From Antedon mediterranea (Eukaryota > Echinodermata > Crinoidea > Comatulida > Antedonidae), in assembly GCF_964355755.1 (NCBI RefSeq), contig NC_092672.1, positions 10,784,501 through 10,848,500 on the forward strand: DNA of 64,000 nt. The letters are read 5' to 3'. Under the pieces are notes generated by a model. It worked only from the letters and a program-made list of their open reading frames with translations, did no database searches and had not been told where the DNA came from. Of this stretch, positions 24,240 through 59,458 are shown in pieces (within the stretch, counting starts at the first letter, position 1; the number at the start of each line of letters is the position of its first letter). The position numbers and the translations under genes were made by a program.

Positions 24240-25000
24240 AAAACTCTAAAAAAATGTAATTTTTAAAATAACATCGAACATGGAAAATACAAATATGCTG
24301 CATTGCTATATACAAGCGTTGAACCATGGTAAAACTAATTAATGTGCTACAAGGTAAAAAAGATAAGTAGAGCTATTTGCTCGTCGAGAAGGTTCCGTGT
24401 GCCCATTTGAGTAGGCCTGCGGTATGCCAACCTGGCAATATACGTTGCAAAACAATGTACTTTACTCAACACACCTACTAAGCATCAAAATAGTCTAATA
24501 ACTACAAACTCTGATGTAATTTTAAAAATAACATCGAACAATGGAAAATATAAATATGTTGCATTGCTATATACAAGCGTTGAACCATGGTAAAACCATG
24601 GAGTAAAGAATACTTTACTCCATGGTAAAACTAATTAATGTGCTACAAGGTAAAAACAAGTAGAGCTCGTCCAGAAGGTTCCCATTTTGAGTAGGCCTAC
24701 AGTATGTCAACCTGGCAATATACGTTGGCAAAACAATGTACTTTACTCAACACACCTACTTGGCATCAAAATAGTCTAATAACTACAAACTCTGATGTAA
24801 TTTTAAAATTAACATCGAACAAAGGAAAATACAAATATGCTGCATTGCTATACAAGCGTTGAACCATGCTAAAACTAATATGCTACAAGGTAAAACAATT
24901 CGCTCGTCGAGAAGGTTCCGTGTACCCATTTTGAATAGGAGGCCTACGGTATGTCAACCTGGCAATATACTACAAAGTATCAAAATCCACCAACTAAGTT
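24240..25000. repeat. ~265-bp tandem repeat, three units
   Basis: Units begin near AAACTCTAAAAAAATGTAAT and include GCATTGCTATATACAAGCGT and GAGAAGGTTCCGTGT. The second unit carries a 30-bp palindromic insertion at 24,597-24,626. Two to three units occur in duplicon B (57,345-57,840). Confidence 0.85.
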
Positions 25001-25148
25001 TACAGTATGTAAACAAAATAATGTTTTTGCACATTGTAACACTACGCGTAATCTACATTATTCGGGGAAGGTTTATCAAAATGCCCCAGCAAATAGATAG
25101 AAAGTGCATGGTAGTTGTGTGATTTGCTGTCACGCATGTAAACAAGTG

Positions 25149-25499
25149 TTAAAAGATAACGGTAGACTGGGTATGATTAAAGTCACTGACCAAATATAAT
25201 ATCATCTATAATCCTCCTCCAGCCTATCTATGAACCAATTGCCATCACAATAACTGGACACCAGCAACATAAATCGGCAAAAACTATGAACTCTAACTTT
25301 GTTGCGATTCTGATTATTTCTTCTTCTTTTTTAACTTTGATAACAATTGAATTACCAAAGATGATAATCCAATTAATAACAATACAGTACTCGTGAATCT
25401 TCTTTTTTTAATAAATCATCACACGAAAAACGATCAATTGAAGGCTCGCAGACATCGATTTCACTAAAAAGGCAACAAAGACTGAATAGGTCTGAATAT
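25149..25499 (-). pseudogene. GPCR TM5-TM6-TM7 segment, copy A (damaged)
   Basis: After an acceptor (CTCTTTTACAG) at 25,500 the frame reads IQTYSVFVAFLVKS (TM5-like) to VMIY, then TAA. It continues in the same frame with IKVKKEEEIIRIATKLEF and FIVFADLCCWCPVIVMAIGS (TM6, with the D..CW.P signature of LGR/relaxin-type receptors), then TAG at 25,228-25,230. A YYIWS-type TM7 start follows in another frame near 25,200 but degrades. Duplicon B has an intact codon where A has TAA and TAG, so the ancestor was open there. Confidence 0.65.
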
Positions 25500-28400
25500 C
25501 TGTAAAAGAGTCATATACATACAATTCAGTATTTTGTTGTAAACTTTGACATGTTAAGGTACGTTGACACAACTATGGCATAAATGGCAGTTTGAGACTA
25601 AAATTGACAATATGCTGGATACTTAGTCAATCTAAAAGGTTATTAGTATGACGGTTTGGAAATAAACAAATTAAATTATTGGCTTTAAGCAATTATTTAG
25701 CTTAACCAAAACTATGTTAATAAATGCCAACCCAGGCTTGCAGTTCAGAACTGAAAGACGGCTAAGGAGGTACGGACAGAATATTCTGTGCAGTTACACA
25801 AAGTGATAGAAACTGTAAAATGGACAGTATACTAGATACCAAAAATGATTAATGTTGCTTAGAAAATAATGCCTTCTTAGATATCAGTGCATATTAAATT
25901 GATTTGATAATAATGTTAAATTGTATTGGATTTTACAATTTACATTCGATATATAAATACCAGTAAATTACCATAGAAAAATACCTACAAATGAAACACT
26001 AATGAATTTCGTTTAAGAGAGTAACTTATTCTAAATTTGCTTACAATTGTTTTACGTTTTTCAGTTCTTCAAACATCTTGTATCCGTGAACTTGCAGCTT
26101 GTTGTCTTTTATGTTTCTGCAGAATATAATGCATTAACATATAAATGGCAACTTAATAAAACATTTAAAAAGAAGATTGAAGATTATTAAAAACTCCACA
26201 AGCTTTATATGATTGGCAAATTAACAGTTTATTATTATTATATAAACATTTCATTACTTACAAATATTGAAGTGATAACGTAAATGAAGAAAAGGCAGAT
26301 TGATCAATGGTACTGATATAATTGTTCTGTAATTCCCTACGTAACACAAAACGGAGAATTGTTAATTATAATAAATGTTTACTTTGGAAGATGTGTATGA
26401 CCTCTACCTTCCAACGTTTGACAACCTGGTCCAAAACATAATTAGGCTGATTTTTAATAGATTAATACGAAAATTGTAAATTGCAGAACTACGGTAATCC
26501 AAAGAAATTGCACTTTTATATGAAATCAAATTTTACTCATTTACACTCATACGTGTTTCCTGCACCGTGCGCGCGTAAAAATGTGCGCACCTGGTGGCAA
26601 TTTTTCAAAGGCTTAAAATGACCTGAATCGTGCTCTAATTTAATCAGAAATTGATTTGGAGCATTTTAAAATTTCAAACGCCGTTTACTCGCGCACTTTC
26701 CAATGTTACAAATTTCGGTAGCGATAAAAAAGTTAGCAATTGATGTGAAGCAAACGTGGCTGAAAATGACGTTAAAAAATATTTATCTGTTTCGAAGTTA
26801 TGATCAATTTAAGATTTTCTGAAAATCGTGCGTAACCTACGCTACGCGGCTCTGCCAGCGTCCAAAAGCTTGGCTGCACATCTTCAGTTAAATGTCTAAA
26901 TGTTTACAAAGTTACAACATGTTATGTTAACAGGTTGCAGAGAAAAGCTGAACACAAAAATCGGCGGAAATCCAGAAGAATAACTAGAACTTAAACTCGT
27001 CACCTGAGGACGAGTTTGGTTATCCGCCAGCAACAAAACGTATCTTGCGCATTCAAGTACTTTCCAGTTGTGATTTTTCAAAATAGTAGCCTATTCAAAA
27101 TTAAAACTTCCCTTTCAGTGTAATAACTAAACAAATCCTTTTAATTAATTGTTTTCCCGTGACGGGATTCGAACCCGGTACCTCTGATACCAAAGTCGGT
27201 TGCACTACACATCGAACCATATGAGCACCTGCTGAAGAAAATCCGAAGAAAGAGTCCTCGTTCATTCGGTATGTCGTGAACCCCCTCGATGCAAGTTGAT
27301 TATTACATATCGAACTTAAATCATAATTTTTACTATGATGAAATCTTCACAAATTTTAAACAGTTACATTTTATGAAAGTGCATACTTTCAAGTTTTATA
27401 TATTAACATGTAAAGAAAAAAGATAAACGTTATGTTTATTGTTTTACTCTTTGCATATGTTTATGTTTGTTTGTTGATAATTATTTCAAAAATTACATTT
27501 AATATGCAAATAATGTAGCTATCAAACACTTTTTAACATTCAAGACTATAATAAATTAGACCTATGATTAATACACTGCAAGAAAAAAAAAATGGGGGTA
27601 ACCTTGCATTCTGATGAACTGTTTCATTTTTAAAAGTAGACATATTTTGTAACATTTTCACAATTTGTTGACGTTTTCGTGCGCAACCTGTCATGTTTAA
27701 CGTGCTCGTAGAACGCCATTTCAAGTTGAAAAGTGAATAAAATAACGTAAAATTGTTAACCGAAGATTTAAAAACACAAATCGTGTAAAAGAAATGTTCA
27801 TACGTGTTTCCTGCGCCGTGCGCGCGTAAAAATTTGCGCACAAGTGGCAATTTTTTAAACGCTTAAAATGACCTGAATCGTGCTCTAATTTAATCAGAAA
27901 TTGATTTGAAGCATTTTAAAATTTCAAACGCCATTTACGCGCGCACTTTCTAATGTTACAAATTGCGGTAGCGTTAAAAAAGTTAACTATTGATGTGAAG
28001 CAAACGTGGCTGAAAATGACGTTAAAAAATATTCATTTGTTTCGAAGTTATAGCCAATTTAAGATTTTCAGAAAATCACGCGTAACTTACGCTACGCGGC
28101 TCTGACATCGTCAAAAAGCTTGGCTGGACAACTTCAGTATAATGTCTAAATGCTGAACAAGTTACAACATATTATGTTTACACGTTGAAGAGAAACAGCG
28201 TGCACAATATAAGAAGAGTAAAATATTTCAAACGCAATTTACGCGAAAACTTTCTAATCTCCAAAAATTTGTTAAACATTCCAAAAGTTAGCCATTGATG
28301 TGAAGAAAACGTGGCTGAAAATTTCGTTAAAAAATATTTATCGGTTTCGAAGTTATGACCGATTTAAGATTTTCAGAAAATCGCGCGTAACTTACGCTAC

Positions 28401-31400
28401 GCGGATCTGACATTGTCAAAAAGCTTGGCAGTACATCTTCAGTTAAAATGTCTATATGTTGACGAAGTTACAACATGTTATGATAACACGTTAAAGAGAA
28501 AACGCGTGCACAAAATCCGAGAAAGAAAGAAGAATAATAATAGCGGATAACCAAAAATAAAAAAAAAAGATCCTTACAATAACAAGGGCTTATCCGCTTG
28601 AGGCGGATAACCAAAAAAAAAAAAAAAAATCCTTACAATAACAAGGGCTTATCCGCTTGAGCCGGATAACCAATAAAAAAAAAGAAACACTACAATAACA
28701 AGAGCTTATCCGCTTGAGGCGGATAACCAAAAAAAAAAAAAAAAAAAGATCCTTACAATAACAAGGGCTTATCCGCTTGAGGCGGATAACCAATAAAAAA
28801 AAAGAAACACTACAATTCCAAGGGCTTATCCGCTTCAGGCGGATAACCAATTAAAAAAAAAAAGTAACACTACAATAACAAGAGCTTATCCGCTTAAGGC
28901 GGATAACCAAAAAAAAAAGTAACACTACAATAACAAATGTTTATCCGCTTGAGGCGGATAACCAATAATAAAGATTTAATACAATAACAATAGGTGATCA
29001 TTTTATTCTAAATGATCACCTAATTAAACAATTCTTACAGTTTGTTCAATGATGTTAAATCAGCAAATACGTTGTCTGGCAATGTTCTTATTTGGTTTTC
29101 GTTCAAAGACCTTAAAAGTAAAAACAATGCAAAGTAAGTACATTAACATGTCAACTTACATTTCATTCCTATGTCATATTCGTTGGTAGTCTGAATATTC
29201 ATAAAATATTATAAAAAAACAATGAAATTAACTTCACTAGAATTACAGACATACCACTGTCTGTAGATGACTCGACAATCACAGAATCCCTTCGTAAGTA
29301 TGGTTGTAAACCCAATATTAAACCACAGAACAACTTACTAATTGTTGTAATAGAGATAGAATCCTTTTTTTTCACTGCCATTCCGAGAAACATTAAAGCA
29401 AGGATTTGTTTTTATATTAATTGACAAGAAAATAAAACAAAATACATCTCTTTTGGAAGTAATTTCCAGGGTGCTAATTTTAGTTGAGTCACAGGTTTTG
29501 AATATAAACAATTCTTACAGTAGTAAACTATTTTACTGTGTTGAAGTCTATGTTTTGTTGTAATCACCATTATAAATAATTTAAAAGTGTTTGAAAATAA
29601 AACAATTCTCACAGTTTGTTCAATGATGTTAAACCAGCAAATACGTTGTCTGACAATGTACTTATTTGGTTTTCGTACAAATACCTTAAAAGTAAAAACA
29701 ATGCAGAGTAAACATTAATACATGTCAACTTACATTTTCATATAAATTAATTCTTTTGAGTATCTACAGAGTATCTTAGTCTGAATATTCATAAATTATT
29801 ATAATGTAATCACTAATTTCAGGATTGCCTGATTAGTAAAATATTTCATTTTAGGAATGTCGTGAATAATAATTAATTTGTCAATATATTTTTAATAGTT
29901 TTCAAAAAGTAACGTAATTTGAAACATTCTACAATATAAGTGCACACAATGTTTCTGACTTGTTTGTAATCATAAATATGTTACAAGTAGGTTAACATAA
30001 TACAATTCTCACAGTTCGTTCAATGATGTTAGACCAGCAAATACGTTGTCTGACAATGTACTTATTTGGTTTTGGCGCAAAGACCTTGAAAGTAAAAACA
30101 ATGCAGAGTAAGTACATTGATACATGTCTTTGTTTGTTGGTAGTCTGAATATTCAATAAAAATACACTACAGAGTATCTTAGTCTGAATATTCATAAATT
30201 ATTATAATGTAATCAGCGTTATCATTAATTTCAATAATTTCAGGATTGCTTGATTAGTAACATATTTCATTTTAGGGAAGTCGTGAATAATAATTATTTT
30301 GCAAGTAGCGCAATTCGAAACATTGTACAATATAAGTGCACACAATGTTTCAGATTTGTTTGTAATCATAAATATTTTACAAGTAGGTTAACATAAAACA
30401 ATTCTCACAGTATGTTCAATGATGTTAAACCAGCAAATACGTTGTCTGGCAATGTACTTATTTGGTTTTCGTACAAATACCTTAAAAGTAAAAACAATGC
30501 AGAATAAGTACATTAACATGTCAACTTACATTGCATTCCTATGTCATATTCGTTGGTAGTCTGAATATTCATAAAATATTATAAAAAAAACAATGAAATT
30601 AACTTCACTAGAATTACAGACATACCACTGTCTGTAGATGACTCGACAATCACAGAATCCATTCGTAAGTATGGTTGTAAACCCAATATTAAACCACAGA
30701 ACAACTTACTAATTGTTGTAATAGAGATAGAATCCTTTTTTTCACTGCCATTCCGAGAAACATTAAAGCAAGGATTTGTTTTTATATTTGATATAAAGAT
30801 GTATTGTCCCTTTGACTAATTCCCCCAAAAAAATTGTTTTTTTATATTTCGAAAAAAAGTGGGTCATTTAGAAGTACCATAATAGTTATTAACTTTCACC
30901 AAAAATTAGTTGAAAAAAAAATAATTTAACCGAAATACGGACGTTTTTTGGTTTAAAAAATAACTTTGACTTCCAGTCAAAGTTTTCGATCAAAACATAT
31001 CTCATAATGCAACGCGCTTGTTTGGCTACTCTGTATGCATAATCATAAAACTTGCTCGCGATCTGTGTGAAAACACATTTTCAACCGCGACGAGTTGTAA
31101 ACAATCCTAATTAGCATCATGCATAATGCATACTCGTGGTTTGAAATCTTTGTTTACTCGTGACGATTTTCCAGACGAAATGTAATCAAATTAATTTACC
31201 TGTTAATTACGTAAACTTGTTGTTTTTACTCAAATTTTCGACTTAAAGTGAATAACTTTAATATTACTTTGATATGGCCAACTTAAATTTAGAATATTTT
31301 GACCTTCATTTTTTGTGTTTCAATGGACAATACATCTTTAATTGACAAGAAAATAAAACAAAATATATTCCTCTTTTGGAAGTAATTTCCAGGGTGCTAA

Positions 31401-34400
31401 TTTTAGTTGTGTCATAGGTTTTGAATATAAAACAATTCTTACAGTAGTAAACTATTTTACTGTGTTGAAGTCTATGTTTTGTTGTAATCACCATTATAAA
31501 TAATGTATAGGCCTAAGTGTATGAAAATAAAACAATGCTTACAGTTGGTTCAATGATGTTAAATCAGCAAATACGTTGTCTGGCAATGTACTTATTGTGT
31601 TATTTGACAACCACCTTAAAAGTAAAAACAATGCAGAGTAAACATTAAAACATGTCAACTTACATTTTCATATGAATTTATTCTTATGTCTATGTTTGTT
31701 GGTAGTCTGAATATTCGATACAAAATACAAGTATCGTAATAAGCGTTATAATTATTTCACTAATTTCAGCATTGCCTGATTAGTAAAATGTTTCATTTTA
31801 GGATAGTCGTGAATAGCAATTATTTTGTCAATATATTTTAAACAGTTTTCAAAAAGTAATATAAATTCGGAAAATTCTACAATATAAGTGCACACAATGT
31901 TTCTGATTTTTGTTGTAATCATAAATATTTTACAAGTAGGTTAACATAAAACAATTCTTACAGTTCGTTCAATGATGTTAAATCAGCAAATACGTTGTCT
32001 GGCAATGTACTTATTTGGTTATTGTACAACCACCTTAACATTAAAAACAATGCAGAGTAAGTACATTAACATGTCAACTTACATTTTCCTATAAATGTAT
32101 TCTTATGTCTATGTTCGTTGGTAGTCTGAATATTCAATAAAAATACTCTACGGAGTATCTTAGTCTGAATATTCATAAATTATTATAATGTAATCAGCGT
32201 TATAATTAATTTCAATAATTTAAGCATTGCCTGATTAGTAAAATATTTCATTTTAGGAAAGTCGTGAATAATATTTATTTTGTCAATATATTTTGAATAG
32301 TTTTCAAAAAGTAGCGTAATTCGAAACATTCTACAATATAAGTGCACACAATGTTTATCATTTTTTGATCCTAGTTGTGTCATAGGTTTTGAATATAAAA
32401 CAATTCTTACAGTAGTAAACTATTTTACTGTGTTGAAGTCTATGTTTTGTTGTAATCACCATTATAAATAATGTATAGGCCTAAGTGTATGAAAATAAAA
32501 CAATGCTTACAGTTGGTTCAATGATGTTAAATCAGCAAATACGTTGTCTGGCAATGTACTTATTGTGTTATTTGACAACCACCTTAAAAGTAAAAACAAT
32601 GCAGAGTAAACATTAATACATGTCAACTTACATTTTCATATGAATTTATTCTTATGTCTATGTTTGTTGGTAGTCTGAATATTCGATACAAAATACAAGT
32701 ATCGTAATAAGCGTTATAATTATTTCACTAATTTCAGCATTGCCTGATTAGTAAAATGTTTCATTTTAGGATAGTCGTGAATAGCAATTATTTTGTCAAT
32801 ATATTTTAAACAGTTTTCAAAAAGTAATATAAATTCGGAAAATTCTACAATATAAGTGCACACAATGTTTCTGATTTTTGTTGTAATCATAAATATTTTA
32901 CAAGTAGGTTAACATAAAACAATTCTTACAGTTCGTTCAATGATGTTAAATCAGCAAATACGTTGTCTGGCAATGTACTTATTTGGTTATTGTACAACCA
33001 CCTTAACATTAAAAACAATGCAGAGTAAGTACATTAACATGTCAACTTACATTTTCCTATAAATGTATTCTTATGTCTATGTTCGTTGGTAGTCTGAATA
33101 TTCAATAAAAATACTCTACGGAGTATCTTAGTCTGAATATTCATAAATTATTATAATGTAATCAGCGTTATAATTAATTTCAATAATTTAAGCATTGCCT
33201 GATTAGTAAAATATTTCATTTTAGGAAAGTCGTGAATAATATTTATTTTGTCAATATATTTTGAATAGTTTTCAAAAAGTAGCGTAATTCGAAACATTCT
33301 ACAATATAAGTGCACACAATGTTTATCATTTTTTGTAATCATAAATATTTTACAAGTAGGTTAACATAAAACAATTCTTACAGTTTGTTCAATGATGTTA
33401 AACCAGCAAATACGTTGTCTGGCAATGTACTTATTTGGTTTTGGCGCAAAGACCTTGAAAGTAAAAACAATGCAGAGTAAGTACATTGATACATGTCTTT
33501 GTTTGTTGGTAGTCTGAATATTCAATAAAAATACACTACAGAGTATCTTAGTCTGAATATTCATAAATTATTATAATGTAATCAGCGTTATCATTAATTT
33601 CAATAATTTCAGGATTGCTTGATTAGTAACATATTTCATTTTAGGGAAGTCGTGAATAATAATTATTTTGCAAGTAGCGCAATTCGAAACATTGTACAAT
33701 ATAAGTGCACACAATGTTTCAGATTTGTTTGTAATCATAAATATTTTACAAGTAGGTTAACATAAAACAATTCTCACAGTATGTTCAATGATGTTAAACC
33801 AGCAAATACGTTGTCTGGCAATGTACTTATTTGGTTTTCGTACAAATACCTTAAAAGTAAAAACAATGCAGAATAAGTACATTAACATGTCAACTTACAT
33901 TGCATTCCTATGTCATATTCGTTGGTAGTCTGAATATTCATAAAATATTATAAAAAAAACAATGAAATTAACTTCACTAGAATTACAGACATACCACTGT
34001 CTGTAGATGACTCGACAATCACAGAATCCATTCGTAAGTATGGTTGTAAACCCAATATTAAACCACAGAACAACTTACTAATTGTTGTAATAGAGATAGA
34101 ATCCTTTTTTTCACTGCCATTCCGAGAAACATTAAAGCAAGGATTTGTTTTTATATTTGATATAAAGATGTATTGTCCCTTTGACTAATTCCCCCAAAAA
34201 AATTGTTTTTTTATATTTCGAAAAAAAGTGGGTCATTTAGAAGTACCATAATAGTTATTAACTTTCACCAAAAATTAGTTGAAAAAAAAATAATTTAACC
34301 GAAATACGGACGTTTTTTGGTTTAAAAAATAACTTTGACTTCCAGTCAAAGTTTTCGATCAAAACATATCTCATAATGCAACGCGCTTGTTTGGCTACTC

Positions 34401-37400
34401 TGTATGCATAATCATAAAACTTGCTCGCGATCTGTGTGAAAACACATTTTCAACCGCGACGAGTTGTAAACAATCCTAATTAGCATCATGCATAATGCAT
34501 ACTCGTGGTTTGAAATCTTTGTTTACTCGTGACGATTTTCCAGACGAAATGTAATCAAATTAATTTACCTGTTAATTACGTAAACTTGTTGTTTTTACTC
34601 AAATTTTCGACTTAAAGTGAATAACTTTAATATTACTTTGATATGGCCAACTTAAATTTAGAATATTTTGACCTTCATTTTTTGTGTTTCAATGGACAAT
34701 ACATCTTTAATTGACAAGAAAATAAAACAAAATATATTCCTCTTTTGGAAGTAATTTCCAGGGTGCTAATTTTAGTTGTGTCATAGGTTTTGAATATAAA
34801 ACAATTCTTACAGTAGTAAACTATTTTACTGTGTTGAAGTCTATGTTTTGTTGTAATCACCATTATAAATAATGTATAGGCCTAAGTGTATGAAAATAAA
34901 ACAATGCTTACAGTTGGTTCAATGATGTTAAATCAGCAAATACGTTGTCTGGCAATGTACTTATTGTGTTATATGACAACCACCTTAAAAGTAAAAACAA
35001 TGCAGAGTAAACATTAATACATGTCAACTTACATTTTCATATGAATTTATTCTTATGTCTATGTTTGTTGGTAGTCTGAATATTCGATACAAAATACAAG
35101 TATCGTAATAAGCGTTATAATTATTTCACTAATTTCAGCATTGCCTGATTAGTAAAATGTTTCATTTTAGGATAGTCGTGAATAGCAATTATTTTGTCAA
35201 TATATTTTAAACAGTTTTCAAAAAGTAATATAAATTCGGAAAATTCTACAATATAAGTGCACACAATGTTTCTGATTTTTGTTGTAATCATAAATATTTT
35301 ACAAGTAGGTTAACATAAAACAATTCTTACAGTTCGTTCAATGATGTTAAATCAGCAAATACGTTGTCTGGCAATGTACTTATTTGGTTATTGTACAACC
35401 ACCTTAACATTAAAAACAATGCAGAGTAAGTACATTAACATGTCAACTTACATTTTCCTATAAATGTATTCTTATGTCTATGTTCGTTGGTAGTCTGAAT
35501 ATTCAATAAAAATACTCTACGGAGTATCTTAGTCTGAATATTCATAAATTATTATAATGTAATCAGCGTTATAATTAATTTCAATAATTTAAGCATTGCC
35601 TGATTAGTAAAATATTTCATTTTAGGAAAGTCGTGAATAATATTTATTTTGTCAATATATTTTGAATAGTTTTCAAAAAGTAGCGTAATTCGAAACATTC
35701 TACAATATAAGTGCACACAATGTTTATCATTTTTTGTAATCATAAATATTTTACAAGTAGGTTAACATAAAACAATTCTTACAGTTTGTTCAATGATGTT
35801 AAACCAGCAAATACGTTGTCTGGCAATGTACTTATTTGGTTTTGGCGCAAAGACCTTGAAAGTAAAAACAATGCAGAGTAAACATTGATACATGTCAACT
35901 TACATTTTCCTATAAATGTATTCTTATGTCTATGTTTGTTGGTAGTCTGAATATTCAATAAAAATACACTACACTACAGAGTATTTTAGTCTGAATATTC
36001 ATAAATTATTATAATGTAAACAGCGTTATAATTTATTTCAATAAATTCAGGATTGTCTGGTTAGTAAAATATTTCATTTTAGGAAAGTCGTGAATAGCAA
36101 TTATTTTGTCAATATATTTTGAATAGTTTTCAAAAAGTAGCGTAATTCGAAACATTCTACAATATAAGTGCACACAATGTTTCTCATTTTTTGTAATCAT
36201 AAATATTTTACAAGTAGGTTAACATAAACAATTCTTACAGTTTGTTCAATGATGTTAAATTAGCAAATACGTTGTCTGGCAATGTACTTATTTGGTTTTT
36301 TTGCAAAGCCCTTGAAAGTAAAAACAATGCAGAGTACGTACATTAACATGTGGACTTACATTACATTCTTATGTACAGTATATGTTCGTTGGTAGTGAAT
36401 ATTTAATAAAAATACACTACAGACTTAGTCTGAATATTCATACATTTTTATAATGTAATCAGCGTTATAATTAATTTCACTAATTTCAGCCTGGCTTGTT
36501 AGTAACATATTTCATTTTAGGAAAATCGTGAATAATAATTATTTTATTTATATATGATTATATATGATTACCGCATGCCTTGGTTTATGACTGAATCTGG
36601 TTCTTTTGGCATTTTAAAGAATTTTAACGGTTTTTAATGATTTGATTTACTGTGTACTTGTATTTATAATATTGTTGTTAGAGTCTGTTGAATTTTTACT
36701 TTGTCGGTTGTTTGCAGAATTATTCAGCCGGTGGCTGCCTTCTGTTTGTACTATTTATGTGTTTTTTTATGAATAAATACCTACATACTTACTTACTATA
36801 AGTGCCCACAATGTTTCAGATTTGTTTGTAATCATAAATATTTTACAAGTAGGTTAACATAAAACAATTCTCACAGTTTGTTCAATGATGTTAAACCAGC
36901 AAATACGTTGTCTGGCAATGTACTTATTTGGTTTTCGTACATATACCTTAAAAGTAAAAACAATGCAGAGTAAGTACATTAACATGTCAACTTACATTGC
37001 ATTCCTATGTCATATTCATTGGTAGTCTGAATATTCAATAAAAATACACTACAGAGTAGTAGTAAAAAGTGGTGATTGTGTAAATTGTATCTTTAGACAA
37101 GATGCTTTACTGACATTGCCTCGTCTTTCGGATGGAACGTAAAGGCGTTGGTCCCGTGTACATAATAGTGCACGATAAAGAACTTTTCGAAAAGAGTAAG
37201 GGGATCTTCTTCCGGTGTGTTGATCTTGTAAGATACGTAGCAATAAAGTGAAAAATTAAAGAGCAAAATTCCACAATAAAAATGCATACAATGTCTCCGC
37301 TAATTTCAAAAGAAATTAAACAATGTTTCTGATTTTTTTTTTGTAATCATAAATATTTTACAAGTAGGTTAACATAAAACAATTCTCACAGTTCGTTCAA

Positions 37401-38307
37401 TGATGTTAAACCAGCAAATACGTTTTCTGGCAATGTACTTATTCTGTTATTGGACAACCACCTTAAAAGGCCTTGCATATAAATGTTGTGTACGCCCTCT
37501 ATTAGAGTATTCTAACACCGTCTGGGACCCATATAATTCCAATTTAATTGGTAAACTTGAAATGGTACAGAGAAGAGCGGCTAGATTTGCCTGCAACAAC
37601 TATAAGCGCACGTCAAGTGTAACCGAAATGATGAAGGTCCTTGGTTGGGAAACCTTGGAAGAGAGGAGGAGGATAGCTCGACTGTTAATGTTCCATAAGA
37701 TACACTACTGCAATGTAGCAGCCGATATGAAACTGGTCATGAAAAACACCTCTAGACCCAGTCGGAGAGAGAACAGTCAATCATACCATATTCCTCACTC
37801 AACAGTTGATTATTTTAGGTATTCATTCTTTCCACGCACTGCCATCGACTGGAATCATCTACCAGATAAGGTTGTAAATTGTACTTCTATTCTGGAATTC
37901 AAAACCCATATTGTCCAAACTTAATTAAATAGGGTACCCCTTGTCACAACTTACTCTCTGGGGGTCTCTGTCTTGGTGACAGCTCGCTGGGCAACTGGAT
38001 GGCTGAGGCGGGGTAAATGGGTATCCAGCTACTTTATTCTGCCTCCTAGGTAGCGGCCCAGGAAAGTGATAGCGGTTGGCACGGACGGTAGACTTCCATA
38101 GTGTTAATGTTGGGTACAGTTTACTCTTTTTTTTACTCTTTACAAGGTGTCTGAATACAATACAATTATATAATAGATAGGATAGATCCAATAATTATAT
38201 ATATTCATACTAAACATGTATATATAACTTTAAAAAAAGAGATAAGGCAAAGGGAAGAAAAGAGAGAAAGAAAAGTGAAAGGAGAAGTATGGGGAAAAAA
38301 AGAAAAG

Positions 38308-38343
<36 letters not shown>

Positions 38344-41300
38344 CAAAAATTAAAAAAATAATAATAATAATAATGATAATTAATAATAATAATTATAAAT
38401 AAATAAGGCAGTCAGTTTCTCTCTGTAAAAGAATAACTAAATAGAACAATAATACACAACCAAATACAGTAGAGCTAGCAAAACAGAGTTGGAGGAGCAG
38501 AGTCTTCACATATGAAGTTGGCTCCTAATACGAAGAAGAAGAAGAAAGTAAAAACAATGCAGAGTAAACATTGATACATGTCAACTTACATTTTCATATA
38601 AATGTATTCTTATGTCTATGTTTGTTGGTAGTCTGAATATTCAATACAAAATACACTACGGAGTATCATAAACAGCGTTATAATTAATTTCACTAATGCT
38701 AATTTAACATCATTGAACGAACTGTAAGAATTGTTTTATGTTAACCTACTTGTAAAATATTTATGATTACAAACAAATCTGAAACATTGTGTGCACTTGT
38801 ATTATACAATGTTTGGAATTGCGCTACTTGCAAAATGATTATTATTCACGACATTCCTATAATGAAATATTTTACTAATCAGGCAATGTTGAAATTAGTG
38901 AAATTAATTATAACGCTGATGACATTATAATAATTTATGAATATTCAAACTAAGATACTCCGTAGTGTAGTGTATTTTTATTGAATATTCAGACTACCAA
39001 CGAATATGACATAAGAATACATTTATAGGTAAATGTAAGTTGACATGTATTAATGTACTTACTCTGCATTGTTTTTGCTTTAAGGTGTTTGTCCAGAAAC
39101 AAAATAAGTACATTGCCAGAAAACGTATTTGCTAATTTAACATCATTGAACATACTGTAAGAATTGTATTATGTTAACCTACTTGTAAAATATTTATGAT
39201 TACAAAAAAAATCAGAAACATTGTGTGCACTTATATTGTACAATGTTTCGAATTGCGCTACTTTTTGAAAACTGTTAAAAATATATTGACAAAATAATTG
39301 CTATTCACGACTTTCCTAAAATGAAATATTTTACTAATCAGGAAATCCGGAAATCAGCAAATACGTTGTCTGGCAATGTACTTATTTGGTTTCCGTACAA
39401 AAACCTTAAAAGTAAAAACAATGCAGAGTACGTACATTAACATGTCGACTTACATTACATTCTTATGTACAGTATATGTTCGTTGGTAGTGAATATTTAA
39501 TAAAAATACACTACAGACTTAGTCTGAATATTCATAAATTGTTATAATGTAATCAGCGTTATAATTAATTTCACTAATTTCAGCCTGGCCTGTTAGTAAC
39601 ATATTTCATTTTAGGAAAATCGTGAATAATAATTATTTTGCAAGTAGCGCAATTCGAAACATTGTACAATATAATTTATATATGATTATATTATTACTGC
39701 ATGCCTTGGTTTATGACTGAATCTGGTTCTTTTGGCATTTTAAAGAATTTTAACGGTTTTTAATGATTTGATTTACTGTGTACTTGTATTTATAATATTG
39801 TTGTTAGAGTCTGTTGAATTTTTACTTTGTCGGTTGTTTGCAGAATTATTCAGCCGGTGGCTGCCTTCTGTTTGTACTATTTATGTGTTTTTTATGAATA
39901 AATACCTACATACTTACTTACTATAAGTGCACACAATGTTTCAGATTTGTTTGTAATCATAAATATTTTACAAGTAGGTTAACATAAAACAATTCTCACA
40001 GTATGTTCAATGATGTTAAACCAGCAAATACGTTGTCTGGCAATGTACTTATTTGGTTTTCGAACAACCACCTTAAAAGTAAAAACAATGCAGAGTAAGT
40101 ACATTAACATGTCAACTTACATTTTCTTATAAATGTATTCTTTTTGTTTTGACTTGATTAGTAACAAGGAAAGTAGGGAATATTAAATATGTTGTCAATA
40201 AATTGTTTAAAAGTTTTCAAAAAGTGGAGCATTTAGAAACATTAAACATTAGTGCATTCCATGCAATGTGTTCAATGATCTTAAACAGCAAATAAATTGG
40301 CTGGCAATGTACTTAAATGTTTTTCGTACATATATCAAGTTCGTTGGTAGTATAAATATTTAATAAGAATACACTACAAAGTATCGTAATCAGCGTTATA
40401 ATTGTATGGTTTTTTTATGTATAGGTTGGGAAAATAATTGTTTTTCTATAAATTAATTTGTTATGTCTATGTTCCCCGGTAGACTGAATATTCATAAATT
40501 ATTATAAATAAACAATGAAATTAACTTCACTAGAATTTACAGTTAAAGACATACCACTGTCTGTAGATGACTCGACAATCACAGAATCCCTTCGTAAGTA
40601 TGGTTGTAAACCCAATATTAAACCACAGGACAACTTACTAATTGTTGTAATAGAGATAGAATCCTTTTTTTGTCACTACCATTCCAAGAAACATTAAAGC
40701 AAGGATTTGTTTTTATATTAAAGATGTATTGTCCCTTTGACTAATTCCAAAAAAAAATAATTTTTTTTTATATTGCGAAAAAAAGTGGGTCATTTTGAAG
40801 TATCATAATAGTTATTAACTTTCACCAAAAATTAGTTGAAAAAAAAAATAATTTAACCGAAATACGGACGTTTTTTTGTTTAAAAAATAACTTTGACTTC
40901 CAGTCAAAGTTTTTGATCAAAACATATCTCATAATGCAACGCGCTTGTTTGGCTACTCTGTATGCATAATCATAAAACTTCCTCGCGATCTGTGTGAAAA
41001 CACCTTCTCAACCGCGACGAGTTGTAAACAATCCTAATTAGCATCATGCATAATGCATACTCGTGGTTTGAAATCTTTGTTTACTCGTGACGATTTTCCA
41101 GACGAAATGTAATCAAATTAATTTACCTGTTAATTACGTAAACTTGTTGTTTTTGCCTCAAATTTTCGACTTAAAGTGAATAACTTTAATATTACTTTGA
41201 TATGGCCAACTTAAATTTAGAATATTTTGACCTTCATTTTTTTGTGCTTCAATGGACAATACATCTTTAATTGACAAGAAAATAAAACAAAATATTCAAT

Positions 41301-44300
41301 AAAAATAAACTACAAAGTATCGTATTCAGCGTTAATTTCACTAATTTCAGGATTACCTGATTAGTAAAATAATAATAATTAGGTTGTCAATAAATGTTGT
41401 AATAGTTTTCAAAAAGTGGCGCAAAAATTCTACAATTTAAGTGAATATAATGTTTCTCCTATGTTATAATCATCATTATAAATATTTCACAAGAATTAAT
41501 ACATGTAAAAAACATTTTCCTGTAAATGTATTGTTATGTCTATGTAAGTTGGTAGTTTGAATATTGTAATCAGCGTTATAATATTGTATCGCCTTGTTGG
41601 TAAAATACACTAACAATAATAATATTGAGAATTATTTGAGAACTTTGTTGTCTCCCTATTTAAACGTCATGCTGAGGGTTGTCTCTGTTGTCAAGATTTC
41701 CAGAAAATAAAGACTACTAGTTCTATATAACGCAATATTGAAAAGATTTTTGTTGAGATCGTTGTTGAACCGAACGTAATGGTAAAATTCCGAGTAGAAA
41801 AGCGCCGAATGCTAAAGGAGCCGAATGTATTAATGATAAAAAGGCAATAAAAAATAACATTTTGACAATATATATTTCGACTTACTATAGGCCTTACTAT
41901 GCTATATAAAATACTATATTTATTATGTCTGAATTTCGACCTACTCTGGCGAAATTTCGACTTACTATATCCTGATACAACAATTTAAGAGATATGCAAC
42001 AAATTTAAGTTCTTTTGATCTTTGATGATTCGCCTCTTGGTGGTGAATTCATTGTTGCAAATCATGTGTTCGTCAGATGTAGTGTGTCATTTTGTAACGG
42101 CTAACTAGCTAAAAACACCAGTATCTGAGAACTTCGCAATTTCACTAAAAGACGCTCCAGTGTAATTGATGAATTTTATTATGATTGAATAACTATTTTC
42201 TGTATTTTGATGTACAATTTATGTTAAAAAGTAATTTATTTTTAATATGTGATTAAGTATGATTATTTTACTTATTTTATAGATACACCCTGTATTCACT
42301 CAAATCATTTTTCTTAGTGTAGGCCCAATGTCGTCGCATTGCCTTTTTTTAACCAGGGGTTAATCACATGGATTCACGTGCATTCATCGGCGTAATTTCG
42401 CTGGATTCTTTTCTTCATGTATCACTGAAGTTGAGTAAAAAGTACAAATTCGCCGAAAACTAATGAGTTTAGCTAAAATTTGCATAACAAAGACTAGACT
42501 TGCCCCAAGTCTGTATTTATTGTCTTTTTTTATTTATTTGTTTTTATTTCGACCACGATTTTTGTCTGAAAATACAGACTTGTGAAACACGTATAGAAAT
42601 CGATTTGCAAACCGCAAACATCCGATAAGAATGACGTAGGTTATCATACCGTACTTGGCTATATGGGGCGGGCGGTATGTAAATATGGATTTCGAATCAA
42701 CCAATGATCATTTTGTTTCAAAATGAAAAAGATCGAGTACGTACGTACAGTGTGCTGAATGTACGATCGAGACTGAAGAACTGTTGAAATATAAAATCGT
42801 GTTGCCAAGTTGTTTTGTTTATTAATTGTTCTGGCCTAGGCCTCCTTCGTAGGCGGGTTCGTAGGGCTACTCAACTCGTACGTATGACCTTCCAAATAAA
42901 ACGCCAATAAGGTACATACCACCACCGACCGGCACACAACAGGGCTACACCACCACACATAACAGGACAGGGTCTGGGTGGGAATTAAATCAAATTTTCT
43001 CCGCATAATAAATGATCCATTCAATGTTTGATTTGGCGGAGAAGCTAGCCTATCATATCACGACGAGTTTTCATGTTCTTGGGAAAAATCTCATCAAATG
43101 TTTACCAGACTACTAGGCATATAAAATCATTTTTAGCCTTCAGAAACTTTCATCAATGTACCCAATACCAAAGAATATATATAACAAGAATGAGTATTCC
43201 GCGATTTTCCCTGTAACAGTAATATTGTCCATGTGGTAGGGCGCCGCCATAAGTGTGGATGTATCTGGGATGTATACAACTTTTTGTGACGGTTTCAATA
43301 ACCAAAGGCTAGACCACCGGTAGTATTTTCATGATAAAAAATGTTATCAACTACATGCCAACATCATGTTAAATACTATTTGGATATTTAATTGTTCGTT
43401 TTATGCAATTTATTTAGTAAAAACTGCCGTATAAACAGTAATTTGCTTTATCTACGATAGCGTGACCGGGCGTGTTGGTGTTTATGCGTTTTCACGAAGG
43501 ATTGTTTAATAATATTCCTATATTTAACTTGTTTCTGGTAAAACAAATAAATGTTAATAACATTTAACATTTTGTCCTATTAATAACATGTATTTTATAC
43601 TAATTTATATCATAAAAACAATACTTAAAGACCCCTTCCCTGCAATTTTGGACGTTTTTTGGAAAATAATACATATATATCACTTTAAAAACATTAAACC
43701 ATGTCATTCCTTGTCTTAAATGTACGTTTTATGGTAAATTATGATAAAAAGTGAGAAACAATGCACTACCTAAGTAGCTCGCGGCGATCGACCTCTCGTG
43801 GACGGTCTTAGGCCTAGCCTAGCTAGGCTTAGTTTTGTAGGCCTAGCTGGTAAACATCGATAACGTACGAACATCATACGCTAGCTATATACCTAGCCTG
43901 ACGTTGTATAGTTGCTGCATTAATTGTCTTTCTATTTTTGCCAGACTCCGTTGATACAAATTGGGGAAAACCCGGTATTTTCGCTGAAAAGTTAAGAGTC
44001 TTCCATTTGTTTTGGCTTCACGATCGATCGAAAAGTGGGCGAATTACAGGTGAAAAACAAAAATATCAATCCGCGCGCAATGCATTTTGGGATTTATAGC
44101 GGGCCGCTATAATTATTAGAATCGATTTATTTTTCACATTTTTAACCGTTTAAAGACAAAAAAAGTTATCGCAATAGGACCATATAGTATTATTTTTACA
44201 TTAAATATAGTTTGTGATCTTAAATTAGATCTAAAAAACGTAGGGAATGGGGCTTTAATTTACCGGGCGTAGAGTAGTACACGGCAATGGTAAAGAATAG

Positions 44301-47300
44301 GCCGTGCTGAGTAACGATTCATTGATTTTTGGTGTTGCTGTGTTAGGCCTTTTTTGTGAACTAACTTAGCATGTTAGTAAATAATTGTCTGTAAAAGTGA
44401 ATGTACACTAGTTTGTTAATAAATATGTATTATAAAATAGTTTACAATTGCAAAAACTATTATCATAATTCTATTTAATGTGACATGTATAATATCTATT
44501 AAATCAAGTCTTATTTAGTATGTATACATCCGCCCTTATGAGGGCGGGCATCACTCACTGGAGCTCTCTGTTACAAATTTCTCATGCAAAAATCGCGGAA
44601 TACTCATTCTTGTGATATATATTCTTTGCCAATACCTAAACGTAACATAGCGCATGCGCATCGTCTTAGACGTTCAGTCTTTGAAATTCTGAAATATGAA
44701 TATTAAAACAACGTACGAGTGAGTAGCCAATGGCATGCGGCTGAAACTAGTCAACTGGATAATTTATGCACCAAGAATTCTTGGTGTCAAACCACGTGAC
44801 TTATGCGTGTTTCCCCCCCCCCCCCCCCCAGACGGAGTATCCAAACTCAAGTAATACACGTATGAAACGCCATATGTGCAAAAATATTTATATTTTTACA
44901 AAACTCCGTCTGGAGCCCAGACTAAACAAAGACGCACACGTGAAAACTGTCGGCAAGTGCGAAACAAAATGTTACCAATCTCTAGTAATTGGTGTCTCAG
45001 CTATAAACGGAATTTCGACATACTATGTCGAAATTCGGCTTACTATTTCTAAATAACATTTATACATATGTGCAATGATTAAGCTTTCGTAAAACAATTC
45101 TTACAGATATTTCAATGATGTTAAACCAGCAAATGCATTAGCTGACAATGTACTTATTTGGTTTCTGGACAAATACCTTAAAAATAAAAACAATATAAAA
45201 ATGTCAATAACTGTCTGTCTGTAGTCTGAATATTAAAAAATAAATACACTTAAAAGTATTTAATCAGCGTTGTAATTAATTTAACTAATTCCAGGATTGC
45301 CCCTTCAATACACGGCAATGGTAAAGAATAGGCCGTGCTGAGTAACGATTCATTGATTTTTGGTGTTGCTGTGTTAGGCCTTTTTTGTGAACTAACTTAG
45401 CATGTTAGTAAATAATTGTCTGTAAAAGTGAATGTACACTAGTTTGTTGATAAATATGTATTATAAAATAGTTTACAATTGCAAAAACTATTATCATAAT
45501 TCTATTTAATGTGACATGTATAATATCTATTAAATCAAGTCTTATTTAGTATGTATACATCCGCCCTTATGAGGGCGGGCATCACTCACTGGAGCTCTCT
45601 GTTACAAATTTCTCATGCAAAAATCGCGGAATACTCATTCTTGTGATATATATTCTTTGCCAATACCTAAACGTAACATAGCGCATGCGCATCGTCTTAG
45701 ACGTTCAGTCTTTGAAATTCTGAAATATGAATATTAAAACAACGTACGAGTGAGTAGCCAATGGCATGCGGCTGAAACTAGTCAACTGGATAATTTATGC
45801 ACCAAGAATTCTTGGTGTCAAACCACGTGACTTATGCGTGTTTCCCACCCCCCCCCCCAGACGGAGTATCCAAACTCAAGTAATACACGTATGAAACGCC
45901 ATATGTGCAAAAATATTTATATTTTTACAAAACTCCGTCTGGAGCCCAGACTAAACAAAGACGCACACGTGAAAACTGTCGGCAAGTGCGAAACAAAATG
46001 TTACCAATCTCTAGTGATTGGTGTCTCAGCTATAAACGGAATTTCGACATACTATGTCGAAATTCGGCTTACTATTTCTAAATAACATTTATACATATGT
46101 GCAATGATTAAGCTTTCGTAAAACAATTCTTACAGAAATTTCAATGATGTTAAACCAGCAAATGCATTAGCTGACAATGTACTTATTTGGTTTCTGGACA
46201 AATACCTTAAAAATAAAAACAATATAAAAATGTCAATAACTGTCTGTCTGTAGTCTGAATATTCAAAAATAAATACACTTAAAAGTATTTAATCAGCGTT
46301 GTAATTAATTTAACTAATTCCAGGATTGCCCCTTCAATAAACTTGTTATTGTAGTAAAGTCAGAAATAATAACTATTTTGTCAAATAAATTTATAAATAT
46401 TCAAAGTAAAGCATTTAGAAACATTACATTAGTGCAAATAATTTCACACGTATATATGATCATAAAACTATTCTTACAGATATTCCAATGATGTTAAACC
46501 ACGGAGGTAAAAATTGTTCTTTACCTCCATGGTTATAGCAGCATCAAATACGTTGGCTGACAATGTACTTATTGTGTTATTGTACAAATACCTTAAATGT
46601 AACAAGGCCATATATATGGCTGCAGTCGCGTGCTCAAATTTGAGTTCGTGTTTACCGACCGACAAACCGACCGACCGATATAGCGAGCCGTAGAGTAGCG
46701 TTTGCACGCGACTAAAAACAATGCAGAGAGTAAGTTTATTATTTAAGTCAACTTTCACTTTCTTATCAATTTATCTCCTATGTCTATGTTCGTCGGTAGT
46801 CTGAATATTCAATAATAAATACATTACAGGTATCGTAAACAGCATAATTATTTTGTTAATAAATTGTTTAAATGTTTAAAAAAAGTTGAGCATTCAACAA
46901 AGTGCATTCCATGAAATGTGTCCAATGATATTAAATAGCAAATACGTTGTTCTTATTCGGTTGTTCGTTGGTAGTATAAGTATTCAATAAGAATACACTA
47001 CAAAGTATTGTAATAAGCGTTATAATTGTATGGCTTAAAGTTGGGAAAATATTTATTAATTTGTTATTTGTATTGACCAATCACAAACAGCCTTTCGTCG
47101 CGTCTATAGAGGGCGAACAACAAATGAGGGCGCTATGTAGGCCTATGCATAGTTTAAATAGTTGTTTTATTTCGTCAAGCAACTTACGTGGTGCGGCGTG
47201 TAAAACGTAGTCTCGTGATGATGTGGATTAATCTACGCGAGTTCAATTCCCAGTAGAAGACTTTTGCCACACGCAAATTACACAGTCAATATCAAACTCC

Positions 47301-50300
47301 TCGAGAATTTACTGGATTTTATATGTTATATGGTACACGATAATCACGCGAAAATATCATCGTACTTGAGGAAATATACGATTTACGATCGTCGCAGCAG
47401 TAGTCATGTGATGCAGTTTCAACCAATCACGTTTACATATTTATTATATGTAATATAATAAAATACTGTACCGTATGCAGCGTTATAATTAATTTACTAA
47501 TTTCAGGATTGCCTGTTTAGTAAAGTACTTCATGGCGCAATTGGAAAATTCTACAATATATGTGCACAGAAATATTTCTGATTTCACAAGTATTTGTCTA
47601 TCTATCTATTCTTACAGTCGTTCAGTGATTTTAAACCAACAAATACATTGACTGACAAGCACTTATTATAGTAGAGTAATACAAGTCGAGGAGTTTATAT
47701 TCAAAAACCGATAAATGGCATTAAACAAAATCTAGATGTGCAAATTGCCAGAACGTTGCAAAAAATATCAATGTTTATATTGCGAATCAATTTCACGTTT
47801 TGTTGCCAAGATCGATAAGTACCATGATGCCAATGTTTCTTTATTCCTTAGTCACGTCTAAGAAATAATGACAGTGCTCTTTGACGTAATTTTAGTAAAC
47901 CTGGTGTTTACATATTATTGGTATTGTTATTCTTTTAAATAATTTCATATTCCAGTTAATTGTAACTATTACATGCAATAACATGATAAGAATTCTTAGA
48001 GATATTCCAATTCCAACCAATTAGGTTTATAGCCAATTTTAATGTTACTCAATAAAAGAAAGCTAATTATTTCTTCTTTTTGTGTTTTAATTGTTGTTTG
48101 TATGGTTACGGTCATATACCTAAATGAAGACTTATCAAAGTAGTATCACACTTACAAACGTTTTATTGGATGATATCGATTGTACTGAGTGATTTCAGCA
48201 GCTGTTTAATTACTCCATGAAGAGCACCGTACATGGTCGTCATAGTCTTGATAATTACAGTCACAAGCTCTCGGACATGCTGCGTCTGTAACATGTAAAC
48301 AATAATAAAAAATCTAAAATAGTCCAAACAACTCAAGAATAATAGTTTAAATAAATTGATAAATGAATAAAATTATAATTTGATTTTCAGTCAATTTTAT
48401 TTTTTATTACTTGTTCTTACTCACTAATAAATTATATGAATAGTTTTTAAAAACATATACCGTAATAATTACGATTAGCATTTTAAATTACAAATTTCGT
48501 AATAATGAAGTTGTGTGTATTGAAGATTATAAAAAAAAATGATATGCTCCCAACAAATTAAAAAAAAATATTATAAACTGAAAATAATAACAGGGATAAT
48601 AGTACATTGATGTGATTTCGCGCCGTTCAGCGGAAATTGCCTGGATATTTGGGCACATAGAGTACAAATAATTGTAATATTTGAAACCACTTAAAATAAA
48701 ATTAAGATGAAAAATAAGATTTTTTTATAATGAAGAATATTATGGAAACATAGAAAAGGATATAAATATGGACCGACACGTTATTGTATGGTGGTATTAC
48801 AAATGGAAATGATAACCTTATGAAGTTAAATTAATAGCTATCATAATTATAATTTGTCTTATGTAGCATGTTTTTGTAGACATATTTTAAAAAGGAATTA
48901 TGTTCTACATCAAATTAGTTGGGAAATTGAATATTGGTGAATCCCACAATGAGAAACAAAAATTGTACACGGTCGAAAGTAATGTGACGTGAGTAAACAA
49001 CATTATGCCTAGGCCTACTACTCAGGAAATTGATGCTTACATATTCTAGTAAAAATAATGTGTACAACCGTTTTGAGGACTGGCCTTCAGAAACATTTAG
49101 TGGTGTAATGTAAATCTATAAAGCGTCATATAATACGTTTAGTGGTGTAATGTAAATCTATAAAGCGCCCTATAATACGTTTAGTTTGTACAGTTCAGTG
49201 TTATAAAGCTAGGACTCAATTGGTCAAATTACTTGCGTTGCACAACGCTCTTGCGTTTCCCATGAGCGTGGAAACCAAGCTTTGGTATTTCATCATAAAT
49301 GCACTTAAAATGGACCTGAAATGGAATTTCGATTTTCAAGAAATTCACACATGTTATTTAAATGTATCAAATTAACACAAACCCATACAAATAAAAACAA
49401 AATGTGTAGTATTTTGAGTAAAAACGAAATTTTAAGATACCATGGTAAATTAGCGAAAATTACTCACGCCATTGCAATATTCTATTTCAACGGCCGTCGG
49501 AAGCCTCTATATTCACGACGTCACATATACACACGATGATATCGAGAGCGTGTATGCCGCCCGATAGTCAGTGAATGATCGACGGCCTGGAAAGATACGC
49601 GTAGCGTTGACACTAATACTAATTTATTCAATATCTATTGTTGTTGAAATATATGTCCCTAAAATGTACTTCGTTTGTTCTAAAACCCGAATTTAGAAGG
49701 CCTACCTCCCAAACCTTTACTAGGCCTAGGCCCCCAATCCAGTGCGCGGAGTCGATCCACCACACCCACATCATGCGGCGAGGCTCCGTTTATATCAACA
49801 ACTTGCTGCGCTCATTGTCAAGCCAAAGTAAAATATGAATAAAATTCGTTTTCGAACTGCCTGATTCGTGACAAATAAATTATCATCTCATATTACTAAT
49901 TTAATTCTGCTAAACTAAAAACTAAAGAAACTAACACATTTTAGCAGTATAAATTACGAACGATACAAAATACACGAACGGAAAATATGGATACGCATCA
50001 TTGCGCACGGAGCTGTATCCCGGACAACGTTGCCAGGCCAACTTCGGTATTGCCAGAAAAAAACCGTTGATTTTAAGATTTTAAATTGTCATTTACTCGA
50101 TGAATAACCGTTTATACGGTAATAATTTTATCTAAAAAAATTCTAAATACGTTTCTGCAAATGCACAAGCATTTTTTAGAAAATACTCCATAGATTTCAA
50201 GAGTTATAGCCAAAAAACTGCAAATTGTCCATTGGAGGGATAGGAATATATTCGCAAAGTGACGTCACCCGCGAATTTTTTTGATTTTCAAATGGGGCTT

Positions 50301-59243: not shown

Positions 59244-59315
59244 AATTGTTTTAAGTTTTTCAGTTCTTCAAACATCTTGTATCCGTGAACTTGCAGCTTG
59301 TTGTCTTTTATGTTT
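59244..59315 (-). CDS. Terminal LRR exon 2 of receptor 2 (72 nt)
   Basis: Paralogue of 26,045-26,116 with intact splice sites. It differs at KNVKQL, which is KNLKQL here. Confidence 0.8.
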
Positions 59316-59458
59316 CTGCAGAATATAATGCATTAACATAAATGGCAACTTAATAAAACATTTAAAAAGAAGATTGAAAATTATTAAAAACTCCACAAGC
59401 TTTATATGATTGGCAAATTAACAGTTTATTATTATTATATAAACATTTCATTACTTAC

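Follow-up and report, generated by a model that had tools for sequence, protein, structure and literature searches.

Two receptor gene copies and their exon arrays

The DNA analysed here, called the window, is a stretch of 64,000 nt from the crinoid Antedon mediterranea (C3:10784501-10848500; C1, C2 and so on are contig labels of the assembly, which has 354 Mb in 18 contigs). It carries two copies of a minus-strand gene in which leucine-rich repeats (LRRs) are encoded by arrays of short exons, followed by an exon related to the seven-transmembrane (7TM) domain of G-protein-coupled receptors (GPCRs). Copy A occupies nt 25123-50679, and copy B lies at 58-63 kb and continues beyond the window. 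Both appear to be dead or altered members of an expanded family of LGR-type receptors, in which three codons of the array exons show an excess of amino-acid change over the introns and the rest of the exon.

Exons were located on both strands by scanning for open phase-2 frames bordered by AG and GT(A/G)AG and having lengths of 69, 72, 75, 114 or 144 nt only; longer frames running through two exons already counted were discarded, as were a few non-LRR rows. On the minus strand between 29039 and 46591, the scan found 20 LRR exons, 19 measuring 72 nt and one measuring 114 nt, agreeing to the base with a first-pass annotation of this DNA. The 114-nt exon (46478-46591) consists of a 72-nt unit and a 42-nt, in-frame and largely palindromic insertion. 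Two of the 72-nt exons (46134-46205 and 45105-45176) are inside a 1.03-kb tandem duplication, and the other 17, each ending 71 nt beyond its start, begin at 40000, 37390, 36875, 36239, 35783, 35331, 34912, 33778, 33382, 32930, 32511, 31962, 31543, 30409, 30013, 29613 and 29039. The further intact exon reported in inverted orientation was placed at 39085-39156 on the plus strand, inside an inverted segment (~38697-39357). The exon borders are AG / GTRAG, phase 2-2, and all 21 exons end with CT and begin with a G that, together with the CT before it, makes up a Leu codon, as first described. Being symmetric, any subset of these exons keeps the reading frame.

The truncated or decayed exons noticed earlier around the array were resolved into six remnants (38697-38723 on the plus strand, 39351-39404, 40269-40334, 46919-46950, 47618-47667 and 63182-63247), compared with 24 intact array exons within the window. 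A seventh candidate was a poly-T run, not an LRR exon, and a plus-strand exon at 42510-42581, 'intact' in a looser scan, was taken as a chance match because it is absent from the strict one. Tandem duplications are found inside the array, three examples being blocks of 2.9 kb, 1.0 kb and 1.03 kb that are 95.8%, 98.3% and 99.2% identical, showing that arrays lengthen by whole repeats, as had been proposed for the ectodomain. The 42-nt insertion has a 26-base core that occurs at only three places in the genome (up to 2 mismatches), all at this locus: the 114-nt exon of copy A, and L001:8966-9079 and L001:9351-9464 in copy B. Its presence in both copies makes it probably older than their split, and its restriction to these three places does not support a dispersed miniature inverted-repeat transposable element. 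A plus-strand open reading frame (ORF) at 37373-37921, by eye like the C-terminal part of a long interspersed nuclear element (LINE) reverse transcriptase, overlaps the exon at 37390-37461 (minus strand) and seems to replace its upstream intron, with the AG acceptor kept.

The ends of copy A were identified from several comparisons. An all-against-all ORF comparison gave mostly noise but yielded the LRRNT and signal-peptide exons. The signal-peptide exon MAIFKILLLLVVFPVYCVA (50622-50679, minus strand, donor GTAGGA), supported by tblastn with copy B, joins the LRRNT exon in frame (phase 1), and its ATG is at 50,679, the position already given as the gene start. The exon for the LRRNT cap (48156-48285, minus strand, donor GTAAGT) encodes CPRACDC...RCSSWSN*TAAE..., with an in-frame TAA, and exits in phase 2, matching the array exons. 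Downstream of the array, also on the minus strand, are two constant LRR exons, a penultimate one of 75 nt (26262-26336) and a last one of 72 nt (26045-26116), and then an exon for the C-terminal cysteine cap and a broken 7TM domain (25123-25499), which reaches a stop after ...VLYCY and shows further stops and a change of frame.

The corresponding parts of copy B, all on the minus strand, are three 72-nt array exons (62918-62989, 62493-62564 and 60557-60628), the constant exons of 75 nt (59459-59533) and 72 nt (59244-59315), and an exon for the cysteine cap and a 7TM remnant in several frames (58313-58699), again with a stop after ...VLYCY. The array continues beyond the window (L001), where ten further array exons are followed by LRRNT and signal-peptide exons (L001, L002). 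The LRRNT exon of copy B (L002:810-693) is open, unlike that of copy A, and copy B has no stop from its signal peptide to the cap, a span that includes 13 array exons (11 with 72 nt, two with 114 nt) plus both constant exons. In-frame junctions link the signal peptide, LRRNT and LRR exons, and the LRR exons with the cap. The 3′ parts of the two copies (24970-26535 and 58167-59728) are 96.5% identical. Two plus-strand ORFs near copy B look by eye like mobile element genes, one inside it like a LINE reverse transcriptase (L001:6101-8109), the other upstream of it like a transposon integrase (L002:8357-10000).

The 7TM exons of both copies carry stops and frameshifts. When compared with a 326-residue 7TM query from a related gene on C4, copy A matches residues 1-38 and then 227-322 in another frame with stops, with no match for 39-226, and copy B matches 1-38 and then 250-322 in pieces and in three frames, with no match for 39-249. 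Most of TM2-TM5 has therefore been lost in both copies. Against chains of the PDB, the sole match of the 7TM remnant was a class-A receptor chain (8w1z, E 0.62). With a TAA in the LRRNT exon and a wrecked 7TM exon, copy A is a pseudogene that makes no working receptor. Copy B, being open from signal peptide to cap stop, may persist as a secreted LRR ectodomain.

A conversion of copy B, and of copy A before its LRRNT stop arose, into a secreted LRR protein after loss of the 7TM domain, perhaps a soluble decoy or opsonin-like, would account for the in-frame junction of signal peptide and LRRNT in copy B, for its 13 array and two constant exons being in phase, and for both last exons stopping just after the cysteine cap. 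A secreted splice form of the Lgr4 ectodomain is reported (PMC4154783). However, a frameshift or deletion in TM1 would produce the same stop by accident, and copy A went on to acquire its LRRNT stop; on balance we regard this conversion as unlikely.

The donor sites of the array exons are a distinguishing feature of this locus. A T at position +6 is missing in 31 of 31 exons (GTAAGA in 14, GTGAGA in 11, GTAAGC in five and GTAAGG in one), whereas it is present in 82 of 82 exons at all other loci counted. Weakened splicing or relaxed constraint is possible. This difference, together with the LRRNT stop of copy A, the ruined 7TM exon of both copies, the recent duplications that continue within the array and the decayed remnants lying beside the intact exons, would fit an array that is plain pseudogene debris, the neutrally duplicating and now functionless DNA of a dead receptor. 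The odds of this being true of the window array are a little short of even. Core codons at the window locus still have a ratio of nonsynonymous to synonymous change (dN/dS) of 0.36 and copy B is open from signal peptide to cap, both of which argue the other way, and debris cannot account for the family as a whole.

A genome-wide family of LGR-type receptors

The first-pass annotation had proposed a search of the genome for the same exon profile. A pattern of 31 bases taken from the exon's 3′ half matched 375 places (up to 3 mismatches) compared with one for the reversed control, so the window exons are not a product of chance. An initial pattern of two donor sites was uninformative genome-wide (483 matches, 740 for its control). 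A genome search with Pfam PF00001 listed 148 matches, on contigs C1-C11, none among them in the window, and this general search was replaced by a family-specific query, the 326-residue 7TM domain of the C4 gene. That gene follows the family layout, and its 7TM frame is open for 330 codons.

The query gave at least 56 matches (at least 290 of 326 residues and at least 58% identity, the query included) on contigs C1-C10, of which 53 are without a stop. These counts are a lower bound, from 123 of 300 candidates scored, and omit partial matches of less than 290 residues and those below 58% identity. Beyond this set there was one match at 52% identity and one group at 44-47%, the latter forming a separate tandem group at C3:6983505-7172982. 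With the 7TM domain open in one stretch at 53 or more loci, the family is without an intron in TM2 or TM5.

The layout of n exons of 72 nt, then one of 75 nt, one of 72 nt and a stop-free 7TM exon was read at seven loci (C4, C7, C8, C9, C10, C6 and C2), and partly at C3b, where the last 72-nt exon was unseen by the scan, and at C1, where the 75-nt exon was unseen. Loci with an open 7TM include C4:20.556-20.566, C8:24.386-24.400 and C7:4.055-4.086 Mb. One gene on C8 has 11 array exons and two constant exons within ~7 kb. Four rows were set aside as chance: three non-LRR rows in the window (10843497, 10833519 and 10810298) and one of 78 nt inside the 7TM of C3b. When searched against PDB chains only, the C4 7TM domain matched RXFP1 best (E 1.2e-47), followed by TSHR, FSHR and LHCGR, while its LRR part matched the acid-labile subunit of the IGF-binding complex best, followed by LGR4 chains and TLRs, indicating LRRs of the extracellular type. 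Clear signal-peptide and LRRNT exons were found only in copies A and B; LRRNT matches elsewhere (C7, C8 and C4) were weak. The earlier recognition of the 72-nt, phase-2 exon format of LGR-type receptors is thus borne out by the layout at seven loci and the match to RXFP1. The proposal that the array encodes a receptor ectodomain holds for the family, which has paralogues with open 7TM domains, but not for the window gene, with its LRRNT stop and its 7TM domain lacking most of TM2-TM5.

Amino-acid change at three codons of the array exons

Variation and dN/dS were studied in the 72-nt exons that fit a strict LRR framework (113 exons, 94 distinct, in seven groups). The selection counts do not include exons that failed the framework, exons of 75 nt or 114 nt, the final 72-nt exon of each gene or any exon of L021-L025. 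At the window locus (26 distinct exons of 72 nt), codons 1, 6, 8, 10, 11, 14, 16, 19 and 22 each encode a single residue, and five of these (8, 10, 11, 16 and 22) use an identical triplet in 31 of 31 exons. At the other extreme, codons 2, 4, 5 and 24 show seven or eight residues each. The pattern in the 47 distinct exons of C5 and C7 is similarly focused: codon 2 is mainly TAT, GAT, AAT or TCT, codon 4 mainly TAC, GAC, AGC or GGC, and codon 5 mainly GGT, AGT, TAT, AAT, AGG or GAT. Their third bases are usually the same (T in 41, C in 38 and T in 37 of the 47, respectively) while bases 1 and 2 vary; in C3, the third base of these codons is not fixed. In C5 and C7, the variable positions chiefly carry Y, D, N, S, G and R and occasionally W, a mix resembling that of the binding sites of antibodies and variable lymphocyte receptors (VLRs). 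We take codons 2, 4 and 5 to be x5, x7 and x8 of the LRR consensus LxxLxLxxNxL, and codon 24 to be x3, all of them outward positions of the concave strand. Codons 2, 4 and 5 would then line the concave, ligand-binding face.

The divergence of these codons was compared with that of the flanking introns in close pairs, i.e., pairs of exons with a flank difference of up to 10%; exons with flanks running off a locus were dropped. In the 288 close pairs of C7, the introns differ by 6.5%, bases 1 and 2 of codons 2, 4 and 5 by 52.7%, and the rest of the exon by 4.0%. The corresponding values are 2.8%, 36.1% and 1.2% for C5 (12 pairs), 2.1%, 28.6% and 3.2% for C8 (14 pairs), and 5.1%, 44.4% and 4.4% for the window locus on C3 (77 pairs). 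In each of the four array sets, the divergence of bases 1 and 2 of these codons is therefore 8 to 14 times that of the introns. The dN/dS at codons 2, 4 and 5 is 2.9 in C3, 10.3 in C7a, 4.1 in C7b, 4.7 in C8, 4.8 in C4 and 52 in C5, the last being an unstable value from six sequences. Core codons give 0.75 in C7b, 0.17 in C8, 0.26 in C4 and 0.28 in the diverged C3b.

Steps of change were also counted on minimum spanning trees, where they only approximate events. At codons 2, 4 and 5 of C7, 66 of 68 steps are nonsynonymous and two synonymous (expected synonymous fraction 0.21, P 1.5e-5), and in C3 there are 36 nonsynonymous and three synonymous steps (P 0.012). Steps per codon are 22.7 at these positions compared with 3.35 in the rest of the exon for C7, and 13.0 compared with 2.80 for C3. 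Amino-acid change at codons 2, 4 and 5 is thus in excess over both the introns and the rest of the exon. The arrays of the window bear this signature of the family's diversification despite their broken receptors.

The array exons also have mosaic flanks, as recombination would produce. When eight units were aligned, six were found to have different exons followed by a near-identical intron, and the SLRQ type of exon occurs on two different types of upstream flank. There are 31 distinct residue triplets in 40 exons of C5 and C7, fewer than the 35.9 +/- 1.6 under codon independence (P 0.004), a shortfall to which common ancestry may contribute. In six of the 22 pairs with a flank difference of up to 2%, the variable codons differ, and two of these pairs (~1% flank difference) do so at five and six of the nine bases. 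A segment of C7 (C7:4055000-4064999) has a second copy 119 kb away (C7:4174118-4184117) with one mismatch in 10 kb, representing either a very recent duplication of receptor genes or an assembly duplicate. With this single mismatch, and 16 of the 22 closest pairs unchanged, change at the variable codons is strong but not visibly explosive.

The two pairs that differ so widely on nearly identical flanks, the mostly fixed third base of C5 and C7, and the presence of one exon type on different flanks could also reflect an excess that is mainly mutational, caused by targeted hypermutation or micro gene conversion and not by selection. This is improbable. The C7 duplicate reveals no fast germline mutation, unless it is an assembly duplicate; the variable codons are unchanged in most of the closest pairs; the third base is not fixed in C3; and the A-rich codons 8, 10 and 14 (ATA in 45, ACA in 44 and AAT in 44 of 47) hardly vary, which would require selection in any case. 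Among specific mechanisms, AID-like targeting was dropped because the base that stays fixed in the WRC-like codon 4 is its C. Adenine mutagenesis of the kind carried out by diversity-generating retroelements was also rejected: in C5 and C7 the variation does lie in the first two bases, with the third largely fixed, but A-rich neighbours hardly vary.

A candidate repertoire of recognition receptors and its parallels

We put at roughly three in four the probability that these genes represent an expanded LGR-type GPCR family with exon-modular LRR arrays, three codons of which are under diversifying selection, the window holding two dead or altered members. A gene of the family would comprise a signal peptide, an LRRNT cap and a variable number of interchangeable 72-nt phase-2 LRR exons, followed by the constant exons, i.e., LRR exons of 75 nt and 72 nt and a single exon for the cysteine cap and 7TM domain. 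Duplication, loss and recombination of exons would supply the LRR modules, strong diversifying selection would change their concave residues, and one kind of 7TM module, attached to many binding surfaces, would report binding. The outcome would be a germline repertoire of recognition receptors, whether immune, self/non-self or chemosensory. Beyond the earlier observations, this analysis adds the three-codon diversification, the extent of the family across the genome, a second gene copy whose frame is open as for a secreted protein, the constant LRR exons of both copies, the LRRNT stop and the broken 7TM exons; the family is of more interest than the window locus.

Several observations weigh against this interpretation. 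The concave placing of codons 2, 4 and 5 is a putative one taken from the LRR consensus, and splicing and expression of the array exons are predicted from sequence. The third base of the three codons also exceeds the introns in divergence (21% in C7, 11% in C5, 14% in C8 and 35% in C3), and in C3b, dN/dS at these codons is 0.43. The excess is wider than the three codons, core codons reaching 1.13 in C5 and 1.85 in C7a, and other surface codons 2.6 in C3 and 5.8 in C7a. Pairs within an array are not independent. Taken alone, C5 (no synonymous and 10 nonsynonymous steps, P 0.097) and C8 (none and 14, P 0.055) are non-significant. The rest of the exon is also short of synonymous steps (8 of 67 in C7, P 0.0025; 7 of 56 in C3, P 0.015), as though recent duplication or conversion had kept the silent sites similar. 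The variable codons are identical not only in the 16 pairs with flanks up to 2% different but also in four C5 pairs at a flank difference of 4.9%. Finally, a search of six regions by regular expression found no full LDLa motif, although a split or upstream exon could escape it; seven short partial matches were dismissed by eye.

The symmetric phase 2-2 exons, any subset of which is in frame, would suit a Dscam-like unit of alternative splicing, with combinatorial choice of LRR exons as its main output, and alternative splicing is known for the brown-algal ROCO genes, whose exons have this format (PMC11378527). We consider this rather unlikely, since each paralogue owns an array and diversity at the level of genes may suffice. 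A bolder version, to which we give little credence, is a large GPCR repertoire diversified in the manner of antigen receptors: targeted mutation or micro gene conversion, perhaps also somatic, would act on the three concave codons of exons that are duplicated and relocated, and splicing would combine the exons further, letting one signalling module read many ligands.

The VLRs of agnathans are built of LRR modules that are capped at the ends and hypervariable in their concave residues, and are assembled somatically from cassettes. The modules described here, in contrast, are ordinary exons with introns in a germline assembly. The closest published parallel, judging from passages of PMC11378527, is the ROCO (LRR-ROC-COR) family of brown algae, in which each LRR is encoded by one 72-bp phase-2 exon, the exons form tandem arrays and are shuffled, four sites on the concave side are under positive selection, and pseudogenes occur. 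The tandem arrays of single-LRR, 72-nt phase-2 exons are shared; the excess of change at x5, x7 and x8 here, placed by consensus, may reflect selection on the corresponding face. The brown-algal proteins are ROCO GTPases, whereas the partner exon here is 7TM and not ROC-COR, and the product is predicted to be a secretory, membrane-anchored animal GPCR with an LRRNT cap.

Type C LGRs (RXFP1/2, LGR3/4 and GRL101), for which the LDLa module is distinctive according to passages of PMC11863921, have in common with the present family an LRR ectodomain joined to a rhodopsin-type 7TM domain, with RXFP1 as the best PDB match. They differ in that no full LDLa motif was found here in the six regions searched, the signal peptide can join the LRRNT directly in frame, the 7TM domain is without TM2 and TM5 introns, and there are arrays of variable exons and over 50 paralogues. 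In the snail Biomphalaria sudanica, the schistosome-resistance region SudRes2 contains 12 clustered genes for GRL101-like LRR GPCRs (PMC12297450); the ectodomain there also includes LDLa and C-type lectin domains, and the SudRes2 passages do not describe a hypervariable array of LRR exons. The expansion of LDLRR-GPCRs in Ciona (passages of PMC2396169) is likewise lineage-specific with an RXFP-like 7TM domain; its 14 confirmed members have one to ten LDLa repeats and are without LRRs. Searches of open-licence PMC papers listed no report of an animal GPCR with hypervariable arrays of LRR exons. If the diversification reflects the choice of ligand, the family would couple a G-protein receptor to a recognition repertoire that is modular at exon level and encoded in the germline. 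Among animal surface receptors, it would also parallel the brown-algal ROCO arrays even in the length and phase of its exons, and would open to testing the idea that invertebrates obtain broad repertoires by exon turnover.

A scan of the window for tRNA genes found none. Ahead of the receptor copies, several exon-like ORFs on the plus strand (1518-13833), running from left to right, resemble by eye a gene of the HPS3 type. Beside the exons of copy B, nt 61256-61803 form a tandem repeat that is open in several frames on both strands, with units such as NPFKQIS and RLNKLVI.

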